DNA of 64,000 bases, from assembly GCA_963971425.1 (NCBI GenBank), contig OZ020514.1, positions 45,847,527 through 45,911,526 on the forward strand, read 5' to 3'. Source of the DNA: Bryoerythrophyllum caledonicum. Its lineage: Eukaryota > Streptophyta > Bryopsida > Pottiales > Pottiaceae. The position numbers and the translations under genes are program-made. Below the pieces are notes generated by a model. It did not search any database. It saw only the letters and a program-made list of their open reading frames with translations, and was not told where the DNA came from. This document shows, piece after piece, positions 177-34,139 of this stretch (position 1 is the stretch's first letter; each line of letters opens with the position of its first letter).

Positions 177-1627
177 ACGTTTTCATTCACTTGTATAGTA
201 CAGTTCTTTTCTTTGACCTGTATGCAGTGTTTTCTTTAGTGGGTGATGCTAGAAACATGCAGAGAACATTAATGATGTACGCACTTCAGAAATCTATCTC
301 TTAAGTACATTGGGTCACATATTCGTTCTTCAGAAATATCATCCGATTTTTTATCGACATTATTGTCCACAGGTTTGATCGTGAACGATAATGTTCAATA
401 TTAAACCTAGAGAAAATATATTTAATGAAATATTCTCAACTATTTGTTCCCATGCCTAACGTTCTAGAGCTGGTTCGGTTCACCCTCTCATTAAGGAATC
501 TGATTTTGGAATGGTTCTTAAATTTTTGTTGGAATCATTTGAACCAAATCAGAAGAGATAAAGCCTTAAGGATGGGAGGCCCAGAGGCCCATATGTGGTC
601 ATTTTTGAATAATTTCCAAATTAGATCCGCCAGTCCATTGCAGCCTAAGCGCAAGTTGAGACTTGCTTGGATATGTGTGCTTCCAATGAATGTGGTGAGA
701 ATGTGCGTTGGAGTCTAGTAGGCAAACTACACTAATTACATCAATTTTGTGGATTTGGGATGAAATGTATCTTTTGGTGTTTTATACTATTTATTACACT
801 CATATATTTTCCGAGGCTTGATGATCTCGTAGGCTTTAACCCTTATTTGTGTAAGGTGCCATTGGTGGCCACAATATTCTACATGTATGGTGTTGTGTTT
901 GAATATGATAAAGGTGTAAATATAGAGATGACCTTCATGTGATTTCCGTCCATGGTCGCTTCAAGCCTAATCAATACAATATTGAAAGAATCTTTATTCT
1001 TTAAAATGGAGTGGTATCAAATGTCCATGTATCAATAGCTTTACATGTGAAGTAAAACTCTTATGCATAAATTTACTATAAATTTTGATATATTGTCTTT
1101 TTGATTGTATATAAAGATGATTAAAACCTTTGATTTATTGCAAAGAAGGATGGAAGTTCTAAATGTGATGAAAGAGAATAGCAATTACAAAATAATGAAG
1201 AATCTTCTCTCACAAAATTTTAATTAGTTTATGACAAAAAACATTTTTCTAGTGTAAATAATGTTATAGAATATATGGTAATATATTTGGAGGTATTTAT
1301 TGTATTCCATTGTATTTGTGTTTGATGTATTTAGCATGATATTCATGTGTTTTCTAAAAAATTTATAAATCCAAACCATGATTTGATTTTGCAAAGTTTG
1401 TGTGTAATGTGTATGTGTATTGCATATCAAGTGTGGATCTAATCCATGCTCGAGAGACTCTTCATCACTTTAGTGCTAGATAAGTTATAAAAGTTTTTTT
1501 TAATAGGGCAAAAATAGATATTTTCATTTTTCATTTCATTAAAAAAAAAATTGAAAATTAAATTCCTTTCGTATTTGAAAGCTGTTTAAATTTATTTTTT
1601 TGCTTAATCATATCGTCATGCATTGTA
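177..1627. other. 3' flank, no gene recognised
   Basis: AT-rich DNA after the stop of the first gene. It should hold that gene's 3' UTR; several TATA/AATAAA-like stretches are present but I cannot fix the polyadenylation site. The open frames at 425-718 and 760-942 have no recognisable domains and look like chance frames. Confidence 0.5.
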
Positions 1628-1850
1628 TCTACCTATATAATAGGCGATAGTCTATCTGTCCGCCGCTCCAACAGACCAAGAAGACCATCACCGCACAACA
1701 GACCTAGAGGACTATCACCAAGGACAACATCCTGCGCAACCATGAGACCAACGAGTCTGAGAAGAAGATCAACCGATCGTCCAGGGCCACGAGATGGGTG
1801 AGACATGCGAGCTGCGCCTGGAAGCGGCGCCATCCGGGCCGCCAAGAAGG

Positions 1851-1958
1851 GCGCCGCCTCCCATCATGCCCGCCATGATCACGCCGTCGGGCCTCGTGGA
1901 CCTGAGCACCCTCATGCTCTGCAACCGCATCATCTTCGTGGACTCGCCATTTATACAA
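1851..1958 (+). pseudogene. ClpR-like chloroplast protease subunit, exon fragment
   Basis: The frame reads APPPIMPAMITPSG, then LVDLSTLMLCNRIIFVDSPF. This resembles the start of the mature domain of plant ClpR/ClpP proteins (pattern PPxMPAVMTPGGxxDLSxxLLRNRIIFxGxP). These proteins form the stromal Clp protease core; ClpR subunits are the non-catalytic ones. Only this one exon's worth is present: the following sequence loses similarity at once, and no serine-containing catalytic region is visible. The GC-rich composition contrasts with the AT-rich surroundings, as expected of transferred coding DNA. It lies inside the Helitron, in the same direction as the other captured pieces. An in-frame ATG at 1794 exists, but I see no reason to think it is used. 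Confidence 0.6.
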
Positions 1959-2296
1959 GTTCGAGGGTTTTGGTGTGAAACTGCGAGTCGGAGTTTGGAG
2001 GAAATTTGGGATGGAGGATAGAGTTTTTTTCTTTCTTGAGCAGAGGTTTCTGAAAATGGATTTGGAATTATTTTAGTGTGTGATAGTGGAGGTTTTTGGA
2101 AACGAGAGAGTTGAGAGTGGAGTGGTTGAAGCGGAGAAACTATCTGAGAAGGAGCAGATGTCATGCAAATGTGAATTTCTAGTTTGAGAGCGACTTTTGG
2201 AAAGTCTGAACTTATTGTAATGTGTGGTATTGCAGGTGTGCTGCTTGAATTTCTTCCTCGGAGTAGGTAGTTGCTTAACTTGGAAGTTAATGTGAG

Positions 2297-2635
2297 ATGA
2301 GCATCGAGCCTTTTCGGAGGTTTGTGAAGTTAGTGGCAAGGGCCTTCTATAATGAAGAGATACTGCCAAAGGACCAAACCGGAGCAAGTCTGACAAGTCC
2401 GATAACAAGGGAATTGTTGTCGTCATTCTGGACGATCTCACCAGGTCGACCTTACACCGTAAGGTTTTGTAGCTTGCATTCGTTTCTTTGTTGTGATTTG
2501 CTTACTTTTGGATTTATCTCGGTTAGGCGACAATGGGTGAAGGAAGAGGATTTGGCGAAAGTCTTGCGGCTTCACTCCAAGCAGCTCAGGCGCACGCTGC
2601 GAGTTTTAGAATGTTGTCGTTGCAGGTACTACAAT
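2297..2635 (+). pseudogene. TFIIE alpha subunit (TFIIE large subunit) 5' exons, captured fragment
   Basis: Exon 1 starts at ATG 2297 (MSIEPFRRFVKLVARAFYNE), matching the winged-helix N terminus of plant TFIIE-alpha. After a one-base slip near 2380 the other frame gives SDNKGIVVVILDDLTR. It ends at a GT donor after 2444. The acceptor AG at 2525-2526 joins in phase to RQWVKEEDLAKVLRLHSKQL and RRTLRVLE, exactly the conserved LTRRQWVxEEDLAK core. TFIIE-alpha recruits and regulates TFIIH at RNA polymerase II promoters. The slip, the loss of similarity after about 2611 and the lack of the zinc-ribbon half show this is a broken partial copy. The retained intron shows it was copied from genomic DNA rather than mRNA. 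Confidence 0.8.
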
Positions 2636-3112
2636 TTGGTTGTGCCATTGACAGGGTCGGTGATTGTCGCGGCGGAGTATTTTCATTGGTTGAGTATGAA
2701 GCTCTTCAAGCATGTTTGAGGTTAAGTGGTGAACGGAACATCATGTACTGTTAGAGCTGTGATCTGTAGGTGACGTGGTGATCCCTGAGTGTGGTTAAGT
2801 TTATGTTGGTTTCCTAGGGTTTGGCATCTAGGATCATCTAGATAGTTATTTCGACATAATTGTGCCGAATCCGACCCTTGGATACGGTATGTCTTTTTTG
2901 TTGCTTTTTTAAAATCCAGGGTCTTGGTGTCGAGGTGATTGAGTTGGTGACGAGCGAGGAGCTACGGTAGGCGTGCATGAAGCAGCAGCTGTTGAACGTG
3001 TACCGAAGGTGTGTGCAATGTCTGAATTCTGCACCACATGGATGTAGAGGGTGCGATTGGTGGGGTAGTTCAACTGAGGTTGTGGAATTCTTCACGGCAA
3101 GGTCTCGCTTAA

Positions 3113-3918
3113 CCCCTAAAGGACCAAAGTCCCCTTCGGGGACATTTTGAGTTTGGGTAAGGTACCACGTTCTCAATTCTAGGCATTATTTTCTGAGATT
3201 TTTTATTGAATGGACAACTTTTGATTAGCTTTGCGTAGACACAAATTTTGTAGAATTCCAACTTACAGTTCAAAAGTTACAATTTATTTTCACTTACATA
3301 TACAAATAGTGTAGCAGTTTAGTGTGACATCACAAATACTGTCACCAAACTTTAATAACTTCCAAATTCAATAGAAAGTCGAGTTTTTGTCCATTTAAAA
3401 GAAAGAAAATGTCCTTTTGGAAAGGAGATTGAGATCTTTGCATCTAATGTACGGATTTGTAAATTTCAAATATTTGAGATGGATATGATATATGAAAAAT
3501 ATAAAGTGTATTGTTGATTCTCGGCACATAGTTGCATTGCAGAATTTTTTAGGACATCTTCTACACCTCTTCTACTTCTAAAATTTGGTGCACATGTGCC
3601 TAACATGATCCTTTTCAAGTTGACACAATAAATTTGCGGCCCGTAGTGCAAAAAGTTGCCATAGAAGGTGGTCGAATTTTGTTGAAGGTGTATAGTATGA
3701 CCTGAAAAAGAGATTATGTCGCACTTCAAAGGCTAATATCTTTCAATCCGTGCAATCAAACTTACCAAAGTTTTTACTACACAGTCTCATACAAGTCTAG
3801 TACAACATCCTACGGTTAAATTTTCAAAAAAATGATTTCATATCATCTTGTGTTGAATGTGCTGAAAATGGCAGTTTTGGAGTGTTTTTGAGGAAAAATT
3901 GCCTTGGTCCTTTAGGGG
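3113..3918. mobile_element. TTAA-flanked MITE with 15-bp TIRs (piggyBac-like ends)
   Basis: CCCCTAAAGGACCAA at 3113-3127 is repeated as its exact reverse complement at 3904-3918. TTAA flanks both sides (3109-3112 and 3919-3922). The 806-bp interior is AT-rich with no credible transposase; the longest frames are under 90 codons. TTAA duplications and TIRs starting CCC are typical of the piggyBac superfamily, of which this would be a non-autonomous derivative. It is inserted in the Helitron, so it is the younger of the two. Confidence 0.72.
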
Positions 3919-4347
3919 TTAAAGTATGTCCCCAAGTTGTGTGTTGAGTTTTAGGGTTTAGAGCTATAGTCGAGCTATTTGGAAAGTCATCCGATGTTTG
4001 AACCAGATATTTTGATGTTTTTTTTCTTCATTTTGAGTTGAATTAAACTAAGCTCGAAATAGTTCTGATCTGTATAAAATCAACTCAAAGGAGGGAAAGG
4101 CCGGGAAAATTCATTCAATCTCTTTCTGCATTTTCAAACAAAGATGGATTAAATTGCTTTGAGTTGAGTTTAGAGACCACCAAGCTCTAATGTTTCCTTA
4201 ATTGGAAGTCTCTTCTATTGATCTAATAATTTTATTAGAGTGAGGAAAGAGTATTCAACTTTAACATGCCTAAAGTTCATGACTAGCAATGTGTCCGGAG
4301 CTAAAACTAAGCTTTAGAGTTTAGGGCTCATGTCTACGGTTGCCAAT

Positions 4348-4435
4348 AAAACATGTCTCACAATCCATGAAAACATGTCTCAAAGTCCATGAAAACATGT
4401 ATCAAAGTCCATGAAAACATGTCTCAAAGCTCATG
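4348..4435 (+). repeat. 22-bp tandem repeat, four copies
   Basis: Four head-to-tail units beginning AAAACATGT at 4348, 4370, 4392 and 4414, with one to three mismatches between units. It lies inside the Helitron in a non-coding stretch. No function is suggested. Confidence 0.85.
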
Positions 4436-4574
4436 ATCGGTGAGGGGTCGGAACGACGGGTACTGTTACTTTTAGGGGTTGAATTCTTGCATTTGATTGG
4501 AAACCAGTGAAATTAGATCATGCGCGATTCATTTTGCTAGGGAGGGCTGCTGCAAGCGCGAGGCGGGACACACA

Positions 4575-4718
4575 ATGTGGAGCCGGTTCGAGAAGCTGAA
4601 GGACAACATTACGTGGATTGCCACCAAAGTCTTGGACAGCCAAGACGAGGATCTCGATGCGCTCCAGGAGTACCACAATGGCGCGCCGGACGATGCTGAA
4701 GATGCGTCGCCCCGTGAG
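4575..4718 (+). pseudogene. golgin-candidate-like first exon, captured fragment
   Basis: ATG at 4575 opens a 48-codon exon, MWSRFEKLKDNITWIATKVL then DSQDEDLDALQEYHNG. It ends in GAG directly before a GT donor at 4719-4720. The start resembles the N terminus of plant golgin candidates (pattern MWSSIENLKxNLNxIAxDVxD), which are coiled-coil Golgi tethering proteins. The rest of such a protein, several hundred residues of coiled coil, is absent. The exon sits in the Helitron in the same orientation as the TFIIE and ClpR pieces. Identification rests on this short N-terminal match only. Confidence 0.5.
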
Positions 4719-4833
4719 GTAGCTCACTTGGATAATCCTCAATTTTTAGGGACGGATTGCTTCTTCTGACCTAACATGTAGTGATTAGGGTTTTGATCTT
4801 ATTATTGTAGAATTTCATACTTACCGCGGTCAA

Positions 4834-5850
4834 TTGTTGATGTTACGTTTGAGAGCAAGAAAATGTTATGTTGAAGCAAACTTAAGCTCAAAAGTGGACG
4901 TGCAGTTTCCATATAGCTCAGTCTTTGGTTTGTGGAAGTTTTCAAAACCTATCCTAGAGCAAATATTCTATCACGTGACCAAGAGTTGTGTGGTGCCCAA
5001 GGTCCTCGAGCCAGATATCATTGCTTGCCCGCGCAAGGTGGTTCCCGCCTTGCCCACCCCCCCCCCACTCTACCCCCAAGACCGCACCCAAAACCTGGAA
5101 CGATACGGGTACCGATCGGGAGTCTTCTATGAACCGGAGCTCTCAGAAGCTCATTCTCATCACTACCGCAATCGAGCCTCAGGTGGTGAAGAAGGGCGGA
5201 GAGAATCATGTTGGTGCAGGTGCTGGGACGCAATGACAAGGAGATCATCAAGGGCAGAGTGCAAGTCTCGGAAGAGGTGTGCAGGTTTTTGCTCATTTCC
5301 TTTTTGGTGGCTTTTTTCACGTTTTCGGTTCAATCATAGCTCATGTGTTTGGTTCAAGCGGTGACCCGTATTGTTTTCCAGCTTCATCAGGTATGGCACT
5401 TTTACACATCCGCATTCATATAGTGATAAATCTCATGCTAATCTTCGTTTCCATTCAACAAAATGTCCTGATCAGCAAAACTTGGAAGCTCCTTATTCCC
5501 ATAGGTTTGAAACCAATCTACGGTACTGAATACTCCGGGACTACGGTGTCTGAGGTGTTCAGTTTGCAGTGGAGACAAAACCATCTATTCAAAGAAAAAG
5601 ATCGAAGAAATATTTGTGAAGGTCTAGGTGTTTTGAAGCATGAAGTATGGACAAGCTTTGACGCTAGAATTGGTTTCTTGAAGGTGTTTGAATGGTTTGT
5701 TGAACGATTCTATAGGGTTGCTGAAGAGGTGGGCCAAGAGTATGTTGAGATTCAAAACCTCACCGAATTTTATGATGATTACAAGTAGTGTAATATGTGC
5801 CTTCATGTTCCTCAAATAGACTTCATCAACAACAGACACTTATTTTAAAC
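4834..5850 (+). other. unassigned open segments within the Helitron
   Basis: Several overlapping frames (for example 4834-5364 and 5279-5788) lack a domain I recognise. A GC-rich patch at 5010-5270, with a run of ten C around 5060, has the feel of further captured exon DNA. The stretch 5590-5788 reads FLKVFEWFVERFYRVAEE with few stops. I cannot assign a source gene. From 5850 to about 6370 I see nothing. Confidence 0.3.
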
Positions 5851-6380
5851 TCTCAATGAAAATGCCCAAAGCGTGTCGTAAATACAGCCCATGTCTCTTG
5901 GTTGAAACTCATTATGGGTTGGCCGTGTGATAGATTATACCAAGATTACCTCACTTTGACTTCGTTGCATATCTACCATTTCCGAAAGTTACCTAAGAAG
6001 TTGAATGGCACTACAGGGTTGCTTTCGCCTCCATGCTGTAATGCAACTGTAAAAATCTACTAGATTTGAAGGGCCAACCCATGGTCGATTCCAGAGGCAA
6101 ACTTTCCATGGTTGCCACGGACGTATTAAGTAGGCCTCTCCTTCTCCATTATATCGTTTCATCTATCTCTTCATTTTGGCATGCATTTATTTTGTGTCTC
6201 ATCTAAAGTGTCAGAAGTGCAAGTGAGACGCTTACCAATCTATCATATCTTTCACTGTCAGGTTCCATAACCCATGGTAATGTGCCCCAACTCCTGAAGA
6301 TTTAATGCTAACAAGAGAGAGACTGGATTTTGTGGCGATGGTGTCAAGGGAGCAGATTGTTTCCGAGGCCGTACCAACAA

Positions 6381-6407
6381 GGTTTAGGGTTTAGGGTTTA
6401 GGGTTTA
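6381..6407 (+). repeat. short interstitial telomere-like repeat
   Basis: Three to four TTTAGGG units in a row near the 3' end of the Helitron. TTTAGGG is the plant-type telomere repeat. The array is too short to mark a chromosome end. Confidence 0.8.
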
Positions 6408-6699
6408 TGATTTTGTGAAGGGTTTTCTCCTCCTATATTAGGTAGTACCCTAATGACTCTTGATTTTGACCTCTTGATGTGAAGGGTTTTCTCCTCTTAT
6501 ATTATGCAAGTGATACTTATGTGCACAAAGGGTTGATCAAAATGCAAATGTAAAGCAAAAGTACTTTATTTTTTTAAGTGGTTTTAAACTAGGGTAACGT
6601 TTACATGTACTCCAAAAATATGAGTACTTCTCCATTTTGATTCAATTCGAGCTTATAGGTTTTAAAATACAAAACATACAAACGTAAATTTAACACACC

Positions 6700-6741
6700 A
6701 CCCTCCGCTCTTCCCGTCGGGACGATGGGTACCAACCCTAG
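6700..6741 (+). other. Helitron 3' terminal hairpins and CTAG end
   Basis: CCCGTCGGG (stem CCCG/CGGG) and GGGT-ACCA-ACCC lie just before CTAG at 6738-6741, and the next base is T. This is the replication-termination signature of a Helitron 3' end. Confidence 0.65.
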
Positions 6742-6900
6742 TCTACCTATATAAAATGTCCGCGGCTCCCGTTTACATGACCTTTGGATTTGCCATTTGA
6801 ATCAAATGTACCCTTTGAATTAAATGTGAACTCTGAAAGAATCCTCCAAATGTGCCGCTTGGAGGATTCCTTTATAGTGCCCTTTTATTCAAATTTGGCT
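6742..6900 (+). mobile_element. 5' terminus of a second Helitron
   Basis: The sequence from 6742, TCTACCTATATAAAATGTCC then GCGGCTCCCG, matches the 5' end of the Helitron at 1628 (TCTACCTATATAA ... GTCCGCCGCTCC). The base before it is the final G of the first element, but the A expected before a Helitron start is found at 1627. This fits insertion of the first Helitron between that A and this TC. I could not find the 3' end, so only the first part is annotated. Confidence 0.55.
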
Positions 6901-7640
6901 TATCAAGTTTTAAAATTGTACTATGTATCAAAAATAGAAAAATAAAACCATAATTTCCACCATATTGAAACTACACAATATACTATCTTGGGTGCATAAA
7001 ATAAATGATAGTTATCTAAAGACAATAACACGTATATGAAATAAATAATGGGTATTTAAAGTGACTAATAGGTATATTTAGTACATAATGCGTATATGAT
7101 GGGTAAATTTGATTTTTGCATTTACATACATTTATTTAACTTGGGATTGCCCCGGCGAGTTGATTGCAATGGGAGATGTATTAATAACGTCATAATAGTC
7201 TATTTTAGTAATTCAATTGATTTACCAATAATTAAGAATATTTGTAAACTCATCCGTTAGAGTTATATACTCAAGTTAGTAGTTTTATCGCTTTTTTATT
7301 TTTACGTATATACTCAAGTTAGAAGTAGTTTTAGCTGCATTCTAATAGGAAGGAGAAGCCATATTGTTCCAAGAATCTAAACCGCCTTTTCGCTCTTTGA
7401 GTTGAGAATAGAGCTATTTGGGGCTATTTAAAACCTTGAAGGACATTTTGTTCCTTACGGAATTTGAGCCATTTTGGGTGGGTTCCTATGATGTCAATTT
7501 TGATCACAAAATTTTGAAGTTTAGTATTAAGATGTGCCATAGTATCATCTTTATGAGAATATAATTTCTTCTCACATTGGACTTTAGTGAACAAAATATG
7601 GATAAATGAGTCAAGATATGGGGTTCCAAATTGAGTTAGG
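6900..7640. other. AT-rich, no gene seen
   Basis: No frame with a recognisable product. It may be the body of the second Helitron, but nothing proves it. Confidence 0.5.
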
Positions 7641-9250
7641 TTTTAAGAACTTTCTACTTCGTTATTATAATTAATCACCTCTATGGATACAAATGTAGTT
7701 TTAAAAAGGTATTCTATGTGATAGGGTTGAAGGTCCGGAGGAACAAGTCTATCCTCTTGTTCCTCAACTTCAGAAGACATTGCTACATCAAAAGAGGTGG
7801 AACTAACCCTTTCACTCTGAATTTCCCTGTTTAATTCTTTGGGCTGTTTAACAACATGAGATTGAAGTATAAAGTTTTTTCTTCTCTTTATCCTTATACT
7901 TCTATCTATTTTTAGGAGTGGCAAAAACCAATTTTTCAGTGGTGAAGGATGATTTGGATAAATTTTCTAGAGGAGTAGGAGGATAATTAGGCAAGGTTTT
8001 ATACTTCTTCTCATATCTAGAAAGTTTTAAATCTCTTGCAAATCTTAACTATTGATTTATAGATGAAGGTGTTATCTCGGTACTAAAGGTAGGATTATTA
8101 ACTACTATGACTATTTGTGCGTCTTTCTTATCCACTTGAAATTTTTAACGTCTTGCTCTTTCTACTTTCTGATTTTTTATGGTATCCTTACCTTCTCCCA
8201 ACAATAAGGACTTTTTTTTAAACAAAGCTATAGAGTTTCTTCTGATAATTCCATGACCATAATATCCTCTTGAGCATTTCTAGAATACCCAAATAAAGAT
8301 AATAATTCTTCCATCAAGTCGACCTATTCCATGTACTTTCTATTCCAATTAAATTATTTATATAGTCTCAAATTTTTTCTAATGATTGAATGTTATAAGG
8401 TAAGATGTTCCTATAATAATTCATCTTTCTTTTTAAGCTTATTAATACTTAGGATCTAGGACACTTAGAGTGATGCCTCATTGCTTGCTCTATGTAGGTG
8501 ATTAGTGGTGAAGCTATAGTAAAAGGTTATATCTTAGAAATTGTTAATGATGTTTCTATAAGCAATTCTCTAGAGTACTTAAACTTAATTTAAAGATGAA
8601 TTATAACAAGATTCCTCAGATGAAAATATCTATTTGCTTCTCTGATTTTTTCTATTTTCTTTCTTAAGAGGTTAAATAATTTTAATTCATTGTATTTAAT
8701 TTTTGAATAAACCATTAACAATCTTTCTAATCTAGCTCTTAATTTCTTAAGAGTTTCACTCAAAGGGGTCATTTTTAAATGCATAATGTGTCTAAATCAA
8801 TTTCATCAAAGTCCTTTGAATCTTTTAAGAAGAATTTAGGTTCATAGATATTGCTTTGAATATATCTTTGATTATATTTAATGACAAAGGTTTGTCGTAC
8901 AAACCTATATCCGTTCCATGATCCTATTTCCATTGATACTATTGGTTGAGTTTGAAATCTTAACCTACCACATTGAATAAATAAAAATTGCAGTTGATAT
9001 TTTAAATATAAAATATCTTTTCTAACGATTATCTCATTATAATCCTTTCGATTATTCCAAACCTTAGTTTGGATAATCTGTTTTATATAAGTAAGTAATG
9101 ACTCAAACTTTTCTTTGAAGAGTTTGTCAATATGAGGATGGGACTATAATAGACAATTTTGTATATTCAATACAAAGCCTCAAATAAATATGGGCTTTCA
9201 AAGAAATTGCTTAAATTTCTTTCATTGATCTTCCATGGGAATGTTGTCAT
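7640..9250 (-). other. degraded coding-like region, possible endogenous-virus fossil, family unassigned
   Basis: The minus strand holds several lysine- and isoleucine-rich open pieces. Among them is a 93-codon frame (7643-7924) containing RVSSTSFDVAMSS, then a coiled-coil-like piece at 8590-8784 (LKKLRARLERLLMVYSKIKY), then a further open piece around 8800-9110. The order and style faintly recall pararetrovirus polyproteins (Caulimoviridae-like), but no diagnostic reverse transcriptase, protease or zinc knuckle is visible. It is clearly broken and probably old. The family call is a guess. Confidence 0.25.
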
Positions 9251-12200
9251 GTTCTAAAACATGTTTTCTCATGTAAACACTCACTAGTTGCAATATCCGT
9301 CCCAATACGGATTCAACTTTAAGCTAAGTGCTTAACAATGAACCTCATTGTTCATTATTTGACTTTAACAAATATATCACTTAGATATTAAGTAAAGATG
9401 CGTTGTATTTTTAAAATTTAAGATTTGACACTACTAAAACTAGGCACTACCATGCTCAACAAGGTCTCTAAAAAAATGAAAACCGCAGAACGTAGTAAAT
9501 TTGCTTTAAAAATGCAATATCACAAGAAAGAAGAGTGACAAGAAGTGCATGAAGAAGATAGCCTAGACTATATTCCATTTGAAAAAGGTAGTACGAATCA
9601 ATTGTCCTCCTTTAGACTTCCATATTTCTAGGTGAGTACCATAATTAACTATTATTCGTGGTCGTGATACCAGTGTTTCTTTTTGTTTGCTAGTCGCATA
9701 TAGTAACAAAAAAAACATGTTTAGCTAAATTTCACAATTCTAATTGTAAATTTTTGCGCATGATTTGGTATTGCCACACTATTAATCATTAAATCCACAC
9801 TCTCAAATCACCCAAGACTCACTCTTGGTCTAAGTTCATTTCTCGGGGTGGTCTATTGTCTGGTATTAGATAGTTTTAGTCTAATTATATCATGAAAGCT
9901 ATCTTCTATCAAAATACTTAAGTTTATCTACTTACTTTACACAATTTTGAGGATAAACAATCTCCACTCTAAAGGATTGACGAAATCTTAGTTTTTAACC
10001 CCAAGGTAAAAGTGCTTGGACAAAACCTTGCTAGTCGCCTTTACTATGTGTGTGCCCCATTTTATACTATGCCACCTTGGGCCAATGGATCTTATCCATT
10101 CTTAGCTCATTGCTTTGGTTTATTGATTAATTCTTCTCAAACACAAAATCTTACCAAATGCAATAAAGCTCTGACTTTGTCACATCCGTCCATTATTTGT
10201 GGATTGGTTTCAATTTCAATCCTTCAATAACACATTAGTCCTTCCAAAAACCACACAAGTTAATTGAATTCCCTAAATTCTTCAATGGAATTCAACTCAC
10301 ATTAGATTTACTTGTACAAATAAGTTAATCCGTTTAGATTACTCTTTTTTAGAGCCTAAATTTAACTCTATCCACTTGTGTTTATATGATATTCCATAAA
10401 TTGCATTAAGTGTCTCACATTAAATGCAATCACTCTAATAAGACTGCTCAATCTAATTCTCAACAATTTTGATCATCAAGCATAATCCACTTACACTCAA
10501 ATAATCCCTCTTCTTCCACTTACGCATGCATTAATTTCTTATAATCATAATAACTTTCTTCTAAGAATATATATTCTCTTAAGATCATTCATTAAATACA
10601 TAAGGTCATTCTTTGATCGAATTAGGGTTTTTGTCCTAATTTAACATGAAGATCTAATATGCATAGGCTCATGCATAAACATAAACATAAACGATACAAA
10701 TACAATAACAAACAAATATATTAAAGAAAGACTCTTACAACCATAACTGCTTTTTATCTAGCTTTATTCCTTAAGCTAGGGCTCACTCCATCTTCACTTA
10801 AGGTGATGGCTAATATTTCATAATTAACTAGCTATTTATACTACCTATTTTCTAATGGTTGCACCTCTTAGCAAGAGGTTTTCTCTATTTCTAACCAGTA
10901 GGCTTCTTCTAATTGAATTCCTATACTTGTTCAAAAAAAGGTGTGTCATTCCCAAAAGATCTGAATTAAATCCTTTTCTCACTATAGAATAATAATTTTA
11001 GATATGAACAGGTACTTTTAATTAATTAGCTATTTAATGTGAACTTGATCACTATTTGACTAGTTTCCATTATATCTACAACTTTTTATACTATCAAAAT
11101 TGAAAAAATCTATATTAAATATTTTGGCTCTAGACACACCTTTTGGACGCTATGCATATTGAATAAAATATTGTAGTACCTCTTGTGAAGACACTTTCAA
11201 ACGCAAAGGGATCTAAGACTGATGGAAGGATTGTAAGAGAAGAATTGAAAGCAACACATACGATGCCAATTCTTCATGTACTAGAGTCTGTATAAATAGC
11301 CAAGAGGACTAGCAAGGAGAAATATAAGTACAAGAAGGCCCTCTGGATTTGGACACCACAACACTTTCAAAGTGTAATAGAAACAATATTCAGAATTCAA
11401 ACACCAAGAAACTATGCCTCATCCCTTGCATCCTCGTTTTGAACCAGCAAGGTAGTTGGGATGTAAACCTACAATAGGCACATGTTGAATGCTAACGTAC
11501 AATCTGCTGTATTCAAGCTATTTCACTTCTTTAAAAATTTCAGTGTGAGGGAAATCAAGCTTACTGAATTATGACAATTAGAAATGGATAGTTTGAAGCA
11601 ACGACGGTAATATGTGAGCAATGAGCAATGAGCAGTGAATAGTGAGGCTTGGTAGGAATATTCCAAATTCAAAAATATTCTTAAAATATTATAATTGTAC
11701 TAAAAATAGAAATTTGGGGATCTTATTATTGTGGATTTCGCAAGGTCTCCCGCGATAGCTAAGTTGTGAATAGACGTTTATGCTACTTGTTTGGAAGTGA
11801 ATTGTCAATTTTTTGTGTAGTGTTCAAGACATGATTTGGTTGCATGGTGTCCATTTGCTGGAATAAATTGGATGAAATCTTTGGGTGATATATTTCTTTG
11901 ATGCAACAAATTTTTTAGATTTCTTGGTCACATCTTTGATAGTATGTTCCAAGATTTTCAAATTTCAATGGGGGAGAAAATGAGCACTTTGGTACTGAAG
12001 TGCCTATTTTGGGCTCTTGGTTTTATTGAATTTCAGACACATAAATTTTTGCTACAATTAAACAAGGACTTTTTTTGTACAGTACATAAATGCCAAAGGT
12101 TGAGGCTACTGCAAATCACATCCACTGTTATAGAAAGTATTTCATAAAAAAATTCCAAAATTTCTATGGGGGAAAAAGAACACTTTGATACCAAAGTGCT

Positions 12201-12363
12201 TGTTTAGATTTCCTCATTTTTTGGAAATCTGGATCAAATTTCCGAAAATACCGAGATGCCAAAAATGGCATTTTAGTACCAAAAAGTCTATTTGACACAT
12301 CAAAATATGTACTATAGTTCATACATGAAAAACGAGGCAATAACTTGCCATTATTGTAGAAAC
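9251..12363. other. AT-rich intergenic DNA, nothing recognised
   Basis: No coding frame over 75 codons and no repeat array that I could see by eye. The frames at 10012-10230 and 11944-12147 have no domain and biased composition. Confidence 0.5.
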
Positions 12364-15100
12364 TTAGAGATCACTATCACGGAGTAGATGATTTATTTCA
12401 TTGAAGCTCACATTTGGGACGTGAATGAACTTGTTGTCCTCAGAATTTGCTTTGCAGAGGAAGCGGTAGACGTAATAAAGGTGCTTGCACTTCACCGAGG
12501 CTATTTGTTTACATATTTAAGCTCTACTAGTCATGGTAACGAAGTCTTTGCAAGTGTAGAAGGGGATGTCACAATGTTTAATCTGGTATGTCTTCTGCTT
12601 GAGATAGTCCCCTGAAATGATGGTGATGATCTTGCTAAAACCTAGATATGAAATGGGCATCACCTTCTTTACAGTGGCCTTGACGTTTTGTGCAAAAATT
12701 TTAAGTTGGTGCTGGGGTACCCTTCTTCAAATCCTTATAGACCTTCGCATTTCTTCTTTTGCCCCATTGAATGTTGTGGCATTCCTAGAGCCTTTTCTAT
12801 GAGGAGCAATGTGCCACTACAAAGGATTGTACGCGATCTCATGAATAGATGTAGCATGGGGATGAAGGATAGAAGGGGATTTAATGGCGGTATGGTCGGC
12901 ATTTGAAGCCCTAGCCTCACTTCGGGCTCGTGTTGAATGAGTTTGAACACGTGGGTGAGAGAAGTTAACTTTGGAGAGTCTTCTTCAAAATCGGTTAGAA
13001 GATCAAGCTTCTGTTTGTTTGAGCTGAACATCTTCTCGCCTTCTAGATGGAGAACTTCAGTGGTGAAGTTCTCTGTGCCAAAGAACTTAGTAATCCATGT
13101 AGAAATCTTGATTGGCTCCTTTGTACCCCTGGCAGCCTACAGTCAAAGCTTCTTAAGGTTGGGCCCAATGCCTAAAGCATGACCGTGCGGGTAGGCCCAC
13201 TAATTGGTGAATTGCATTATGGCCTGCATTATATTGTCGGTGGTAGCAACGTACATGCAAGTCCTTCTATTGCCGGACATTTGCAATTATTTGTTGTGCA
13301 CCGTCTTTGTTACGAAATAGGATGGAATTTCCGCCAATTGCCCTATATTGAGTTTCTACATGGCATTGAGCAGAGTTAGGATTTTGGATTAGGTGTAGGA
13401 GGAAGCATGACAAACTAATGTTAGAGTTTAGTGGTTGAGGAAGTGCCAAAACAAGCAGCTAAACAATTGAGATTTTAGGATATGTATACGCACCATATTC
13501 ATGAAGCCATCCCATTGATGATAGCAGAAAAGCCAAAAATCGAGCTAGTCGTCCAACTCACGTATCGCTTCTTTAGATGCCGCCCGGAAAAAAAGCCACG
13601 AAGCTTTGATTCCCAACTACAACTCTTTCGCCTTTTCAGACGTCTTTGCATCTTTGTACTGTTTGCAAAGTCGGTTGTTTTGTTTTCGTAACCATGAACA
13701 TATGAGCTTCGTAGTGTATATGTTCAAGGACGTCATAAAGTGCAGGAGATATCACCGCTCCTTGTCAACCATCTTCACGGTAGGGTCGCCGCTTTCAAAG
13801 ACCATGCGGACATTGTTCTAGTTGGCTTGAGCGCTGTCTACTATGAAGCCCCTAAAGATAGGGTTTGGTTAGCCGTGGCAAGCCCTCACCTTCTTGAAGG
13901 ACAACCACATGAGCTCCTAGGATTTAGCGTCCTTGCTTTGCATATCACAGATTGCGATAGTCATCACTTGATAGTATTCGGGTTCGTAGATGTGGCAAGC
14001 TATTGTTGTCTCGCCCTTCACTTGTTTTGCGTGGTCAAACATGATCCAAGAGTTTTGAAGGTCACCACCAACCTGCATTCGTGTGACGAGGTCAACGGTG
14101 CTATGCGGACCTTCGACGGATATCTTGAAAAGGTATAATTTCTCCTCGTCTTGTCCTTGAAAGACGTTGTCTTGGATGTATAGCGCATCTTCAACTTGAG
14201 TTTGATGATGTTATTGATTGATCCTCTATTTACAGTGGATCAAAAGGTAGAGGTAGCATTTTTGATGTTAAAAGAGCTAAGTATCCAAAATCTTTCCGTA
14301 ATTGAGACAAACAAGTCTCGATGAAGAAGTTTGGGCGTGCCCTCCCGGTCAAGTGCAAAGATCTCAATGGACAAGAACTCCTTGCTCGCACCTAGACCCA
14401 TGGCAGAGTTCTTTGCTGGAGGGGTTTTATACACCTCATCATCTACAATCTTAGTGGCTCTTTCGTCGGACTTAGGTCAAATGCCTTTAGCAGTGGGATG
14501 TTGGTGAATACAATGTGAATGCAAGCAATACTGAGGCTACTCTTATTGATGATGTAATACATTTGGCAAGAACAAGAACCAAGGGAAGAGGGAAAGGACT
14601 TATAGATCTAGCATAGCAAAGTCAAGTTTGGGGGTGGCGTGCCTTTTATTGCAAAGAGGTGTGAAGAAGCGCCCTTCCATTTGGTTTTGTTGTCTAAGTC
14701 GGTGGTGTACAACCTTGGACAAGCTTTGTTCATGCACTTCAGGTGGCCGACATACAAGGAGGATCTAAAAATAAGTCCATAGTTATTTGCAACGTTAGTA
14801 ATATATGTCTTTGTCTATGCATGTGGGTCAAATCTCTTGTCTATGTCTTTCATTTGCCAACCGTATGAGAGTGATATCATGATCAAAGTGGGAAAAACTG
14901 GAATAAAACATCTCCATTGAATTTGGGGGAAGACATTTGACCTTCTCGTAGCAAAAAGTATCCAGGTTCAAGAACTTCAGGTCATCCATCCGACACGGCC
15001 TACTCTGTAACTGCTTAAGAAATAAAAAAACGGTAGAAGATTCCAACTTGGGAGGTAAGGGCGACCGTAAATTCAACAACGGCTAGCTAGTATGTGACTG
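12364..15100 (-). pseudogene. Mutator-like SWIM transposase, copy A (degraded)
   Basis: Read on the minus strand this stretch aligns along its length with the better-kept copy at 49-52.8 kb. Visible pieces include DLVTRMQVGGDLQNSWIMFD around 14040-14110, a following segment like TIACHIYEPEYYQVMTIAIC, GFIVDSAQAN near 13820, and a C-terminal SWIM part: VKCKHLYYVYRFLC near 12470 followed by VSFNEINHLL. It ends at a stop whose complement is 12364-12366. The order is that of MULE transposases: a zinc-binding N-terminal part, a DDE/RNase H-fold core, then SWIM. It has many stops and frameshifts, so it cannot encode a working enzyme. The N-terminal border is vague, with weak similarity as far as about 15300. 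No TIRs were found. Confidence 0.65.
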
Positions 15101-15720
15101 AGATCCATTTTCAGGAATCTCTAGCACAATTTTAGTGATTGGAGAGAGAAAAGAAAGGTCTGGTTTTGATGTTGTGATGTATTCATCATCGTACAACTCA
15201 CTGAGCAAAATGGTGTCATTCTCGGAGGACTTGACCTTGACATGAGTTGTAGATGTCGTATGGATTGTAGACCTTCATGACTCAGGGGTGGGGATGAAAA
15301 GGCTATTAATGAAATTGCCAAAGACTTTGAAATTCCTAGCCAAGAGTCTCCGAGTCAATTCTCCATCCTTAATTCTTCTCATTTGCAATACAATTGAGAC
15401 TGCCTCCATTTCCTCGGCATTGCACACTTGTCAAAGAAATGATGCCCAAAGCATGTTTGAATACATACTTTTTTGCTCAAAATACACGTGCACATATTAT
15501 TTGTTTTTTGTTTTTTTAATGCTACTTGTTTGTTAAGGTCTTTGCTTTCAACTTTATAGATAAGTCCTATTTGGATTGTAATACAAATTCATTCTAATCA
15601 TCTCAATATCTTCTCCAGATTTTCCTATACCTTTATTTGAATTGTCAATATCTAAAATAATCAAAGTATTAGTAAATTGAAATGAAATATCATCAGAATG
15701 ATAATACCTAAACCAAGGAC

Positions 15721-15830
15721 CCTAAATCCTAAATCCTAAATCCTAAACCTGAACCTAAATCCCAAACCCTAAATCCTAAATCCTAAAACCTAACCCTAAC
15801 CTTGAGAGTTACCCTAACCCTTAATCCCAC
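15721..15830 (-). repeat. degenerate telomere-like array
   Basis: A run of CCTAAAT/CCCTAAA heptamers with frequent single changes; the consensus reads as TTTAGGA/TTTAGGG on the minus strand. It may be a decayed interstitial telomere tract or a simple repeat seeded by one. Confidence 0.75.
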
Positions 15831-16440
15831 AATTACGTGTGTACTGGTCGCATATGCAAGTATATTTGAAGTACGTATTCTTCCTAATTTAGTTGACTGG
15901 GGAATAGTAGATTCAGTTTTCCGTCGAGATTTCAAATTTGCACCTTTTAAAGGACTGTGGAAAGGTTTCCTCTGGCCAATTCTGAAATCGTAGCCCGCAA
16001 TTGAAACGGTCGTGTGTCCGTGACTGATCCCGGCGAACCTCGTCCAGTTTCTTCATTTCTTTCGTTCTCAATTTGGTTGCTGTACAAGGCTGGTGGGTGG
16101 GAGGCTTGGAGGTAATACAACTGTGGGAGGTAGAGGAGGGCAACATTTATAGGTTGCACACGGTTGAGCAGGGCGCTTGCGCGAGGCAACAATGCAGCGG
16201 TTGTCTACTTCATAAAGTACAAGGAGTTTACTTCTTGCAGTCTCCATGTATTCTAGCAATTAGGATGTGACAGTGATGCTTATTGCTCTAGTTCGAGTTG
16301 CTACTGTGATTTTGAAGCGTCACTACGAGTTCCTCGATTACTAACGCAAAGATTTGGGTTCTAGTATACTAAAAGGCAGATTTTCTAGGTTGAAGAGTTT
16401 GTCCATATTATGCCCGAAAATGACGGCGATAATCACGGAA
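15831..16440. other. unassigned stretch before the DUF7869 element
   Basis: Short overlapping frames on both strands around 15910-16270 have higher GC but no recognisable product. Nothing else is seen. Confidence 0.4.
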
Positions 16441-16843
16441 GGACATTTTAGCTCGAATCATGCTAATGTGTTAAACCTTATTTTCAACAATGGTTTAGCT
16501 CGACTTGAGCTAAACTGTCATAACATATTATTAACGATAGTTTAGCTCGACTCGAGCTAAACTGTCATACCTTATTTTCTACAATAGTTTAGCTCGACTC
16601 GAGCTAAATTGTCATACCATTAAATATTCAACATTTCAGCTCGGATCAAACTAAAATGTCATTGTCAAGGGTGTGATTATTTCATTTTCACATTAAAAGT
16701 GCTGATATGAAATTGTATTCTTGTCATACAATACCATCAGACTTTACCTCGAGTCGAGCTAAATTTGCATGTTCTACAATGTCAATTGAGTTGAATGCAA
16801 GTTATTTTTCAAGCACCAGACCTTACCTTGATTCGAGCTTAAT
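16441..16843. repeat. left palindrome array, 47-bp period
   Basis: Five units at a strict period of about 47 bp (motif starts 16447, 16494, 16541, 16588 and about 16634), then two outlying copies (16743 and about 16823). The best copy, 16541-16561, has perfect arms TTTAGCTCGA and TCGAGCTAAA around one C. Copies at 16494 and 16588 differ by one or no bases. Each unit could fold into a 10-bp-stem hairpin or bind a dimeric protein. Confidence 0.9.
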
Positions 16844-16903
16844 TACGGACTTAATATGCTTCTGCATTGATGCCCATTCCTACAAAGTATTCACCCATAC
16901 TAT

Positions 16904-19785
16904 TTGGAAGGATTCTTTAATATTTATCTCATTCGAATGCAAATGTCATCCTCAGAGGATGTCAATGTTCATGTTGACGCTCCCGTGAACCCAAACCTTC
17001 TTAAGTTTGATGTTATTCCTCGCCGTCACTCGGTCGGGATGACTGTTTTGCTTCACAATGGTTCGGGTGTTCGCGTTGCGGAGAGGTTGGTTCGCAATGT
17101 CCGGTCCAGTGCAGTTCTAGGTTCCTCTGGTCTTCTTGGAGTTTCCAATATTATAGTACAGGTGTCCAATACTTTTGTTGAGGAGGAAGCTCCTGATGAA
17201 TGGAGGTACTCATTTAAGTCCTGGCCAATTCAACAAGTCTTCTTAAACAGTGTGAGTCACTTTCATCATTGCCTTAGGGACGTTTACAATGACTGGTCGG
17301 TTGAGCGTAACAAACCTCTAGATGGGAGCACCCGTTCGTACGACAATTCTTCAAGGAATACACGTCCAACAATGTCTAGGAATGTTGAATTCCTCATGAC
17401 CCCTCATTCCATTAACGCAGTTGCGAGCAGTAGTTGTTGAATTCAAAACTATGTTGAACACTACCCTAGAGATAAAATAAAAGTCTTATGGCTGCGTTTG
17501 TACACTGAGACCATCGTGCAGTTTCAGAATTATATCAAACTCGACGTTCACAGACAGTTTTATAGAAACGCTGCGAGTATGAAGGTTGTGACCCTAAAGG
17601 GTGTGGACGTTTGTGCCCATGCTTGGATGAAAATCATGGGTGTAAGTTTGAGTACGTTCTATTGGAATCCGAAGGACGCTGCCGCTAGTCATGCGGCTCA
17701 ACACCACAAGAATACCGGTTTGTGTAAGCCTAGAGGTCATACGGTTGTGGCTACTGCCGCTCTTGGAGCCATCCTCGATAGACATGCGGACCACATGCCT
17801 CACAAGTCTCGTGTTCTCCCATCTGGCGAGAAGGTTGTGGCAAAGGTCATCCCTGCAAGTTTTTAGTGGAAGGATCAGATACAGCTTCTTGATGATCATC
17901 TCGTTGATTGTGGATTGCCGCCAATCTCAACGTCAAGCTTGAGTACCATTCGGTGAGTGAGCTTCCTTGAGTACTATGCCAAGAAAGGTGGAGACAACTT
18001 TGCCCGTTGTTCTACGTGTGATAAGTACCGAGATGAGAAGAAGCTTACTCAACCTGGAACACAAGCATCACTGCTATGGCAAAAGAAGATGCAAGTTCAC
18101 ATCGATTCTGCTTTCTCACATCGGGACTTGTACTACCTGAACCGATTTCAATCAAAGTCGTCGCCCCAGGAGGTTCTAACCATCATGCATGATAAGATGG
18201 ATCACTCAATGACCGCCTCCCCAATTTTTTCACATAAAACAAAGCTCTTAGATGGGCTTCTGAAGTTTACTCTTGCTATCACAGGCATGCTTGCCCTATG
18301 GTCATGTGGACCAATGTTACGCCCATTCCGGCCTTGATTTCTACACCCATGATGCCAATTACACGGTCGGGTCGTTCGCAAAACTATTGCGTGACCTGGA
18401 GGCGCCTCCGAAATCATCGTCCTGCCAACTCTTTCCAGAATCTAGTTATCATCCATTGTATGCGGCGATAGTACGGGGTGCAGAGATGAGTTTGGATCCA
18501 TTAGGGCAGATTCGAGATATCCCAGTTTCAGGGAGGCCTTTGCCTCCAATATTAAACGTGCAAATGGACAATGCTGCTGGTGATAACAAAAATAGATTTG
18601 TTTTCTGTTTTTGGTCTCTCCTTGTTGCAAAACGCATCTTCCGCGAGGAATATGTTAATTTCATGCTAGTTGGTCAAACACATGATGATATAGATGCATT
18701 ATTTTGACGTTGGAGTATGACACTGAGGAATGAGAGTTTTCCAACCATTCCTTTGCTCATGAGGTCGTTCATGAAAAATGAGAGTGTTCCCACAATCCCG
18801 CATCTCATCCAAGAGGTTCTTGACTTTAAGAAGTTCATTGGTGATATGATTGCGGGCAGAGATGAAGCTTTGCAAGGTCATACAAAGGCTCATCAATTTA
18901 AGTTTTATGTGGATTCAAGTGGTTGTCCGGTAATGAAGTATAAAATCCTTTGTCATGATGAGGATTGGGTTCCTAAAGGAAAAGAGAAGGTAGTGGCATC
19001 AAATTGTGGAAGGAGGATTCTGAAGGAAGGGCTTTATGGCCTCACGGAGAACCTGATGCATTGAAGCCTTCTACGATGCGGCATCTCCCTGAGGTGGTAA
19101 AGGGACTTTCAGGATTCAATGATCACTAGGATAAATCATCGCGGGAGTCTGTTGAAGTCAGATCACGTTTTGAGCCACTGTAGTAATATTGGCGCGACGT
19201 TAGAGATGCTCAGACTCTTCCAATGTATACGTCCATATCATTGGAAGACAAATTTTGGCCAACGACTCGAACTGCCCATGCCATTGAAGATGAATTCTCA
19301 GCGGAGGGTGAGGTTCGCGAGGAGTATCGTGAAGATGAGCATTTTATTGGCCAGAGATGCGATCATCCACCTCCTTCTTTTAGAGTTGGTCGTGATTTTT
19401 TTGCTGGCTATTTTGTTGCATTGCGGCCTTGTGATGGAGACGAGCGCCCATTTTGGATTGCTCAAGCAATTTCAGATCCTAACTCTAACCCAGATATGCC
19501 CAACATCGTGCATATCCAATTCTTCCGCCCTATATCGCGCGATTGGGATGTTATGAAGTTCTACAACGATTGGGATACAACGATTGGGATTGCAACCTTC
19601 GCTGGACAGTTGAAAAGGGGATAGCCATAACGTGGGAGAGTACCGATTCAATCTTGATAGCATGGAGACCTAGGTCTTCAAAGCAAGATGGAGGTCATGT
19701 ACAAGATTCAACTACAATAATTCCGAAGGGGCAAGTAGCGATTATCAAGGTCTCCTTGGAAGCACTTGCCAGGTCTGAATTGTAA
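16904..19785 (+). pseudogene. DUF7869-type transposase-like gene (broken)
   Basis: Open pieces occur in order. The N-terminal part (16904-17440) has no known domain. At 17957-18290 a Cys pair (ARCSTCDKYRDEKK) is followed by HIDSAFSHRDLYYLNRF and IMHDKMDHSM. At 18300-18707 comes ILNVQMDNAAGDNKNRFVF followed by FMLVGQTHDDIDALF. The motifs MHDKMD, QMDNxxGDNKNR and GxTHDDIDALF are the signature of DUF7869 proteins, common in non-seed plants and some animals, and look like the acidic centres of an RNase H-fold transposase. A C-terminal piece (about 19330-19785) reads RPPFRVGRD-like, then VHIQFFRPISRDWDVMKF and ITWESTDSILIAWRP, possibly a chromatin-binding fold. In-frame stops fall at TGA after 17437, TAG near 17866, TGA near 17954 and TGA near 18705. 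There are frameshifts near 18290 and between the last blocks. The gene is a recently decayed, near full-length copy. Confidence 0.7.
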
Positions 19786-20100
19786 TAGACTTAGATAAAA
19801 TGGACTTTCCTTTTCGTAGATTTTGGATTCTGATGCGTGATACTTCATGTAGTATGGTTAGATCCATTGGTGCCAAGATTATAGATATTTGTATTCGATT
19901 ACACTTTGTATGAGTATATATGATGCCAATGATTGCTCCGACATATTCTCTCCATTGTTTTTGCATATCAATGATAATTTGCAATATCTTTTTGTTTCTT
20001 TTTTAAAATAACAATGTGGTAAATTGCTCCTAATCTTGAAACCAATAATACCAGTAATTGCCTTCATGGTGAATGATAGAAAGTAAATGTTGGTTCACAC

Positions 20101-21032
20101 TTTAGCTCTAGTGGAGCTAATGTGCGAGCAAATCTTCTTTTTAGTTCACTGCACTTAGTAATGTTGCGCACTTTAGGTCAAATGGAGCTAATGTGTGTGG
20201 AATTGCTTTTTTGAATTCATTGCACCTCTAAGTGATGGAGACACTTTAGTTTGAAGAGAGCTACTATGTGTACAACTTTTTTCCCACTTTTGAACACCAT
20301 CATTTGAAACTCGTTACTTATTTTTTTAGCCAATGTGTATTCCTCAAGGTGAACTAAAATTCTTTTGAATTAAAAAAAAAGGCTCATAAGAATATGTTTA
20401 GCTAATTCTTTTACAAGTGGCTATATGTCCGTCATTTAGCTCACTTTAAGCTAGCTTGGAGCATGGTGTTAATCCGAGTTAGTAGGTTTGAGAGATTTTT
20501 GTAACCTCGAAGGCTTCAGTGTGAATATTTAGCTATTCATATTCAATGAACTCATGTGGTATAAAAGAAGTGTCGACTAATGTGTTCTTCTTTTCAATAA
20601 TATAGTTAGATTTGTAATGTAACCCTAGCCCGTAGTACTTATTTTTCTAGGAAATTTTGTAGTGAACATTACCTCCCAATTTAACAGAAACTCATATCCC
20701 TTCATAATGTAGAGTTTAGATGTGCACTTTAGCTCTTATGTTCTACATGTGTTAATTTGGGAGTCCCTATATCTCCCAATATAACGAAGATGTTGTTAAA
20801 ATAGGCTGAAAAGCCTCATTGGTGTTCAACCCTCGCCCAAAAAGTATAGTGGAAGCACTCTTCAGGTGATCTAATGAGGGGAGGCAATAATACTGACTCT
20901 TTGTATTCACCATAAATACAACAGCCTCGGAAAACTATTTTAGCGTACTATCTAAAGGGCAAAACATCATAAGCATTATTATTGGAGATTGAGAGCCTCC
21001 GAAAATAACATTGGAGCTTGACTTGAGCTAAA
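20101..21032. repeat. right palindrome cluster of the DUF7869 element
   Basis: Copies of the same motif occur at 20101-20120 (TTTAGCTCTAGTGGAGCTAA), 20172-20191 and 20245-20264, spaced 71-73 bp apart and each followed by a TGTG-containing tail. Looser copies are at 20434, 20728 and 21013-21032 (GGAGCTTGACTTGAGCTAAA). The copies are more diverged than on the left. Confidence 0.75.
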
Positions 21033-21651
21033 CAACGCACATATGATTGGTCAAAATGTTATAGTCTAAGATTTTCATTTCCAACAGATACGGAATGATG
21101 TCCATTAAAACGAGAGGTAAATACGCATATAAAATGCATTTATGAAAATATAGATCCTTAGAAACAAGTTTAGGGTTTAGGATTAATTTTCACCGTGAGT
21201 CAAGCATAATGATATACATCTAGATCATGTAGTAGAGCATATGCCACATTTAAGTAAATCTGGACTTTTGAAAGTCTAGATTGGTCAAAGTCCAGATTTA
21301 TTCAAGGAAAAGCTAACAAAATATGGTATAGAGGTGCTTCGTAAGATCCTATGATCTAACAAAGATGGTGAATAAATTTTGAAAGTTAGAAGCTTCACAA
21401 GAGAATCAATTGATAAATTTTAGGAATGTGTGATGTAGCAAGTGACCTTGCAAGAATAGGAGAATCATAGTAGAAGTGAGAAGTGACCTGGCATCACAGG
21501 ATAGAAAGATCCTACCATCACCATTTATTGTTAGTAGTAGAAGTGAGAAGAATTATGTATATACTGCATCAACAGTGAGAAACAAACGTAGCATGTAAGT
21601 GGTTCCAGTAGAACAGAAGTATTTGAGGAGGGCTAATTCATTATTAAGAAA
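21033..21651. other. no gene seen
   Basis: AT-rich stretch between the DUF7869 element and the minus-strand Helitron. It contains a TTTAGGGTTTAGG fragment near 21170 and a short self-complementary piece near 21260-21300 (TCTGGACTTT / AAAGTCCAGA), and no reading frame of note. Confidence 0.5.
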
Positions 21652-33850: not shown

Positions 33851-34139
33851 AAAGGGTTAACTCAAAAAGAAAGACTATTCTACGTTCTACAGTATTTCTT
33901 TGCATTCACTTTAGCTCAATTCGACCTAAAGTGTAACTTACGTAATCCATCGGTATCCACATGTTGGATCTCGAGGCATTTTGAATCTCCCACGACACCG
34001 ATGAGCAGGACTTGGACGACGCAACAAAGGACCCATTGACGTTGGATCGGTCCGATTTCGTCGTTGGTGCATATCACGTCAACATGTTCCTATGTATGTT
34101 TTTCAGCGTGAAGTCTATGATTAGGTTCTATCCAGCTTC

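Follow-up and report, generated by a model that had tools for sequence, protein, structure and literature searches.

The window analysed here is a stretch of 64,000 nucleotides from contig OZ020514.1 of Bryoerythrophyllum caledonicum (Bryopsida; assembly GCA_963971425.1, positions 45,847,527 to 45,911,526). It contains a worn gene with a DUF7869 domain, referred to as gene 2, which lies between groups of a short palindrome. A preliminary description had seen in these features a candidate undescribed type of DNA transposon, spanning 16441–21032, in which matched subterminal palindrome arrays flank a transposase gene. Comparison with the rest of the genome (437 Mb in 894 contigs, the window being situated in the contig designated C1) points with good confidence to window 15432–20797 as the right remnant of a DUF7869 DNA transposon of about 17.8 kb, with a DDD transposase, likely of the Sola (Sola1) superfamily, and with palindromes that would act as protein sites. 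The features are listed in Table 1.

Table 1. Features of the transposon copy and of related sequences in the window.
Feature	Position	Strand	Basis or remark
Decayed DUF7869-transposon copy, left-truncated; only the right 5.4 kb of about 17.8 kb	15432–20797	+	Similarity limits against other loci
Putative transposase pseudogene (gene 2) with several stops and frame shifts	about 16943–19785	+	Limits from open frames of other copies
Match to the DUF7869 domain, broken at 18705–18707 by an in-frame TGA	18531–18956	+	PF25273 profile
Right terminal inverted repeat	20771–20797	-	25/27 bases (92.6%) match the left end of copy A
Seven palindromes, starting at 16447, 16494, 16541, 16588, 16635, 16743 and 16822; first five at 47-bp steps	16447–16842		Motif scan and Tandem Repeats Finder
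Two palindromes 71 bp apart (20101, 20172)	20101–20192		Motif scan
Different old repeat that borders the copy where its left side is cut off	14000–15429		41 rows
Remnant of exon 3 of gene 1 from the same family of elements, carrying one palindrome (33910)	33890–34083	-	79% to copy A 2998–3192

The window copy corresponds at 86% identity to positions 12513–17794 of a complete copy, copy A, on contig C7. Its right end was determined by a search with window 16300–21200, in which 30 of 2126 candidates were scored, the window itself included. Of the 24 other loci having a right-end alignment, 21 lose similarity at window 20797–20800 and the remaining three at 20782, 20792 and 20811; past the terminus, the bases were judged by eye to be dissimilar among loci. 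On the left, the copy stops at 15432 while other copies have common sequence further leftward, and it is therefore truncated. In a search with the old repeat adjoining the cut edge (of 733 candidates, 40 were scored, and the rows include the window itself), four of the 41 rows extend to window 15420–15429, beyond which only the window itself continues. The limits given in the preliminary description are corrected accordingly to 15432–20797. A palindrome-like site at 21012–21032, with four mismatches, which had fixed the right limit in that description, then lies 215 bp outside the right terminus.

Because of the stops and shifts in its frame, the DUF7869 gene of the window is a pseudogene; the other copies listed include some with gene-2 frames of 951–1042 amino acids. 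The PF25273 (DUF7869) profile matches window 18531–18704 (E 3.9e-23) and 18714–18956 (E 6.6e-6). The motifs MHDKMD, QMDNAAGDNKNR and GQTHDDID, previously likened to the acidic centres of an RNase H fold, were all found in the window gene. In a comparison of 11 sequences, from which L006, L008, L065 and the window copy are left out and which includes relatives of 24–27% identity, three aspartates, located in DGM/DKM, xDN/xDG and HTHxxxD, are kept in 11/11, with variation in the neighbouring acids. Among the 150 candidates scored out of 3608 first-look candidates, many PF25273 matches lie in frames of 1066–1087 amino acids. One high-scoring match, L003, is 24% identical to the protein of a further copy, copy C. 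Besides DUF7869, no Pfam family exceeded its cut-off in the long gene-2 proteins scanned. Pfam describes DUF7869 as a domain of unknown function, and its name is absent from the literature searched. PDB sequence searches gave no convincing match, and no confirmed relative was obtained from a viral collection with the DUF7869 alignment as query.

Copy A is 17,794 bp long, an inverted copy of the right end having been found leftward, and its terminal inverted repeats of 29 bp are identical at both ends. The terminal bases are AACAC. At up to two mismatches, the 27-bp terminus occurs 1109 times in forward and 1100 times in reverse orientation in the genome, compared to 0 and 0 for the reversed control. 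Target duplications were examined in copy A (17.8 kb) and in seven convergent pairs on C1, 16.1–18.4 kb apart and taken from 100 places listed; for these seven pairs the test covers the termini and their flanks. An exact 4-bp duplication flanks six of the eight pairs (CATG, ATTA, GACA, AATG, CAAT and TATT), with a chance expectation of 1/256 per pair. Immediately beyond the left terminus of copy A (L043 3433–4902), open frames were noticed by eye that resemble a PIF/Harbinger-type transposase.

A second DUF7869 family has other ends. It was recognized from two copies with 1087-amino-acid frames (C3:18240523 and C9:4860007; E 6.4e-51 each), which diverge at a sharp right end. Its inverted repeat, beginning with AACATGGAATTCG, is found 69 times forward and 75 times reverse at up to three mismatches, the control giving 0. 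From roughly two dozen convergent pairs visible in the list, ten were sampled, eight of which have an exact 4-bp duplication. The pairs C3:18225463–18242778 and C6:28415162–28431847 enclose a DUF7869 match. In another observation, the flanks of one pair (L076 and L077) are mutually reverse complementary over the 20 bases seen, probably as the result of an inverted duplication, or else of an assembly artefact.

The element is thus a real, large, high-copy DNA transposon, as illustrated by its terminal inverted repeats, its copy number and its target duplications; the common sharp ends and duplications that the preliminary description had proposed to look for among copies are both present. Moreover, since two families with unlike ends share the same duplication length and both contain DUF7869, the simplest reading is that DUF7869 is the transposase. 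The protein is very probably a DDD transposase, as judged from its conserved residues and from the sharp-ended copies of the two families, and it would act on the 29-bp ends to move the element by cutting and pasting.

Besides gene 2, the element carries a gene on the opposite strand, gene 1, located in its left half and consisting of at least three exons. Gene 1 was seen by direct reading in copies A and C. The frame in copy C is maintained across two predicted GT-AG introns (225 and 287 bp), though the upstream part of this copy has a stop between two frames. Its motifs include INGQHSVAASK, which we take to resemble ParB-like proteins, and DWGPPDS and FCGTKLL, which we likewise take to resemble permuted DNA methyltransferases. 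With two gene-1 exons as queries, no confirmed relative was obtained from the viral collection. Pairing was assessed with the best-scoring copies, 48 of gene 2 and 93 of gene 1. Gene 1 lies upstream of gene 2, on the opposite strand and at no more than 40 kb, in 33 of the 48 cases, with a spacing of 7.8–11.0 kb in 30 of these pairs and of 24–30 kb in three; around the other 15 gene-2 copies, a distance of up to 40 kb contains no gene-1 copy from the list, whatever the arrangement. The element has two divergently transcribed genes, which usually occur together. Among the 33, at least one gene-1 copy in another arrangement (C3:24729588, plus strand) was noticed by eye, some 12 kb past a gene 2; it may be part of an adjacent element.

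The palindrome has the form TTTAGCTCGA-N-TCGAGCTAAA. At up to four mismatches, TTTAGCTCGANTCGAGCTAAA has seven sites in window 16441–16903, none in the coding stretch 16904–19790 and two in 19791–20797, compared to a mean of 0.0 in shuffles of the window element pieces; at up to six mismatches the right side has four. This agrees with the earlier report of palindromes on both sides of the gene, as do the left period of 47 bp, recovered by Tandem Repeats Finder, and the right spacing, claimed as about 72 bp and measured as 71 bp. Palindromes are indeed rare elsewhere in the window, where two are present at up to five mismatches (21012 and 33910). Copy A has 32 palindromes at up to four mismatches, where shuffles give 0.02, and 33 when five are allowed. 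They span positions 285 to 17460 and occupy gene-1 introns, the region between the genes and both sides of gene 2; none falls in the exons as placed, compared by hand. Part of them form a tandem array with a period of about 52 bp at 7337–7705. Genome-wide, the exact palindrome occurs 3707 times and its reversed control 0 times. In the first 13.8 Mb of C1 there are 11 palindrome clusters (61 sites), of which five lie by a listed mismatch-free terminus. That the palindromes belong to the element, as had been suggested, is supported in substance, and they are found again next to a related gene from another organism. Matched subterminal arrays are not supported as the whole layout, the palindromes running through the non-coding part of the 17.8 kb, gene-1 introns included.

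Relatives were additionally found as four GTDB matches (L062–L065), on contigs of 4.3–8.7 kb in metagenome bins. A prokaryotic origin was dropped for these contigs, which are presumably contaminants. L062 is a 4.3-kb contig in a Synechococcales bin, presumably derived from desert crust, and encodes a 963-amino-acid protein that is 76% identical to that of copy C (730/962). It has ten palindromes at up to six mismatches, one of them a perfect 27-bp palindrome, and none in its coding part. Upstream of the open reading frame, little besides the palindromes aligns to copy C: all blastn matches lie on or span palindromes, the longest covering 101 bases over three of them. In L064, which is related at 26–27% identity, two tandem 89-bp copies at 4972–5149, about 0.3 kb past its DUF7869 frames, contain a different palindrome, CTTGTGTTCGTTTCCGAACACAAG. 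L063, an 8.7-kb contig in a Shimia bin, encodes a 1249-amino-acid DUF7869 protein, has two more long frames next to it on the plus strand and is probably from a eukaryote.

The palindromes are candidate sites for binding by a protein of the element. Their spread along all of copy A, introns included, favours the gene-1 product over the transposase as their reader, which is a tentative best guess; this protein would coat the element along its non-coding length or, hypothetically, mark it chemically. The somewhat less probable option that the palindromes are bound by the transposase, with gene 1 uninvolved, would follow the example of CACTA and Ac/Ds subterminal repeats. The palindromes flank the transposase gene both in the window and in L062, and L064 has its own palindrome near its DUF7869 frames, as if there were one site for each transposase. 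However, the sites of a transposase are as a rule concentrated in the few hundred bases next to the termini, and the palindromes of copy A are dispersed over 17.8 kb, in introns and intergenic DNA, rather than gathered near the ends. CACTA/EnSpm and Ac/Ds elements have subterminal repeat arrays, which are confined to the subterminal regions. The present element resembles them in having short element-specific motifs in many copies in non-coding DNA, but its palindromes extend beyond the subterminal regions, and the termini and duplication lengths differ. It is quite unlikely that the palindromes are hairpin-forming or neutral by-products of tandem repetition without a binding protein. Some are found in 47-bp and approximately 52-bp tandem arrays, which are able to spread by unequal exchange, yet many stand alone, within introns or in the DNA between genes, and every upstream blastn match between L062 and copy C lies on or spans the same palindrome.

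For gene 2, the alternative is that DUF7869 is a passenger and that an unseen transposase moves the elements. Most second-family pairs fetched enclose no listed DUF7869 match, as would be seen for a passenger, but the idea is made highly improbable by the position of DUF7869 between the ends of copy A and likewise between those of two second-family pairs, the families having unlike ends and the same duplication length, and by the conservation of the three aspartates down to 24–27% identity. The transposase reading of gene 2 being preferred, its superfamily has to be considered. The Sola superfamily was reportedly founded in a 2009 paper by Bao et al. As far as the available parts of two later sources go, Sola elements have DDD transposases, 4-bp duplications and inverted repeats of 11–1124 bp and can exceed 15 kb, and Sola1 is listed for the moss Physcomitrella (PMC10741241, PMC9033089). 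The available text of PMC12477816 describes Sola1-1_Ec32 of the brown alga Ectocarpus, an element of 21.5 kb in which a gene for a ParB-like protein and a DNA methyltransferase lies opposite the transposase strand; transposons bearing such genes are proposed there to bind and modify their own DNA. The present element is similar to Sola in its 4-bp duplications (6/8 pairs in the first family and 8/10 in the second), its three aspartates, putatively catalytic and conserved in all 11 sequences compared, its exact 29-bp inverted repeats in copy A, which fall within the described range, and the 17.8-kb length of copy A, exceeding 15 kb as in some members. With Sola1-1_Ec32 it shares the giant size and the gene on the strand opposite the transposase. 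For the ParB-like and methyltransferase domains of the algal element there is here a putative resemblance at motif level only, with no profile match, and unlike that element, as far as it is described in the available text, the present one has a visible candidate target, the palindrome, 33 times in the copy counted. Moreover, palindrome arrays and DUF7869 go unmentioned in the available parts of PMC10741241 and PMC9033089. Since the comparable features (duplications, aspartates, size and opposite-strand gene) agree with published Sola/Sola1 elements, the 'undescribed type' of the preliminary description is weakened and, on these features, not supported. The element probably belongs to a known superfamily, likely Sola (Sola1), an assignment by described features in place of sequence comparison. 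That the DUF7869 elements form a separate, unnamed superfamily of DDD transposons is rather unlikely. Such a superfamily would fit the Pfam status of the domain, its missing name in the literature searched and the lack of a further Pfam family over its cut-off in the long gene-2 proteins scanned, but all comparable features, including the size above 15 kb and the opposite-strand gene described for Sola1-1_Ec32 in the available text, agree with Sola.

Other superfamilies were tried and rejected. CACTA/EnSpm elements, which have CACTA termini and 3-bp duplications, were dropped in view of the AACAC termini and 4-bp duplications. KDZ elements, for which Pfam presumably includes a model, were dropped as well, DUF7869 being the sole Pfam family over its cut-off in the long gene-2 proteins scanned. 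In the available text of PMC12477816, KDZ giants resemble the present element as giant DNA transposons with an accessory gene. Ginger1, with 4-bp duplications in the available part of PMC10045372 and a gypsy-integrase-like core, was rejected because Pfam gave no integrase family for the long gene-2 proteins scanned. AcademH, with duplications of 9–10 bp in the same source, was rejected by the 4-bp duplications found here.

Several points weigh against the interpretation as a Sola1-like transposon with protein-bound palindromes, in addition to the basis of the class assignment. Owing to the truncation of the window copy, its own target duplication cannot be shown. Two of the eight pairs of the first family have no exact duplication, copy A with three of four bases and another pair with none, and the same holds for two of the ten second-family pairs, one with none and one with the reverse-complementary flanks. 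Only two of these ten pairs enclose one of the 150 listed DUF7869 matches; the other eight may contain lower-scoring matches or be deleted copies. The second family is known from its ends, frame lengths and profile matches, and by eye its last 0.6 kb or so has no TTTAGCTC palindrome. A single-sequence structure model of the 963-amino-acid L062 protein has a mean predicted local distance difference test score of 32.6 and is unusable for fold comparison. For gene 1, the motifs that resemble methyltransferases look degenerate; neither ParB nor a methyltransferase was matched in Pfam, PHROGs, NCBIfam or a PDB sequence search; a phage tblastn search gave no match at E<=1; and its weak Pfam matches, below the cut-off, include a Tc3-type transposase helix-turn-helix (E 0.008–0.012). 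The downstream sites of L062 are too worn for blastn, which gave two weak short matches (E 0.019 and 0.82). Finally, six of the 11 C1 clusters, two of them single sites, have no terminus nearby in a list of mismatch-free termini only; these clusters may have worn termini or be part of something else.

What is new here is the link between DUF7869 and transposition, together with a palindrome that recurs and is a candidate for the sequence recognized by the element's own putative DNA-binding protein. A likely function is thereby offered for a Pfam domain of unknown function, of which at least 150 matches were scored in this genome. In addition, the palindrome may supply the missing half of the self-modification proposal, namely the bound sequence (PMC12477816, available text). 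A far-reaching variant, which is very doubtful, is that DUF7869 marks a separate class of giant, self-marking DDD transposons outside Sola, in which element-specific palindromes in non-coding DNA, introns included, are loading sites for a protein that is ParB-like and methyltransferase-derived. If true, such an element would recognize, coat or modify its own DNA for segregation or for escape from silencing.

Elsewhere in the window, the DNA following the gene-1 exon relic resembles, by eye, the integrase of a gypsy-type retrotransposon. Plant-telomere-type repeats are few: there are two, one of which (15721–15793) lies within the element. Minus-strand frames at 55871–56479 and 59042–59974 match NLI-interacting-factor-like phosphatases (E 4.6e-7 and 6.8e-10), and 62795–63423 holds tandem repeats whose periods are about 42 and 89 bp.

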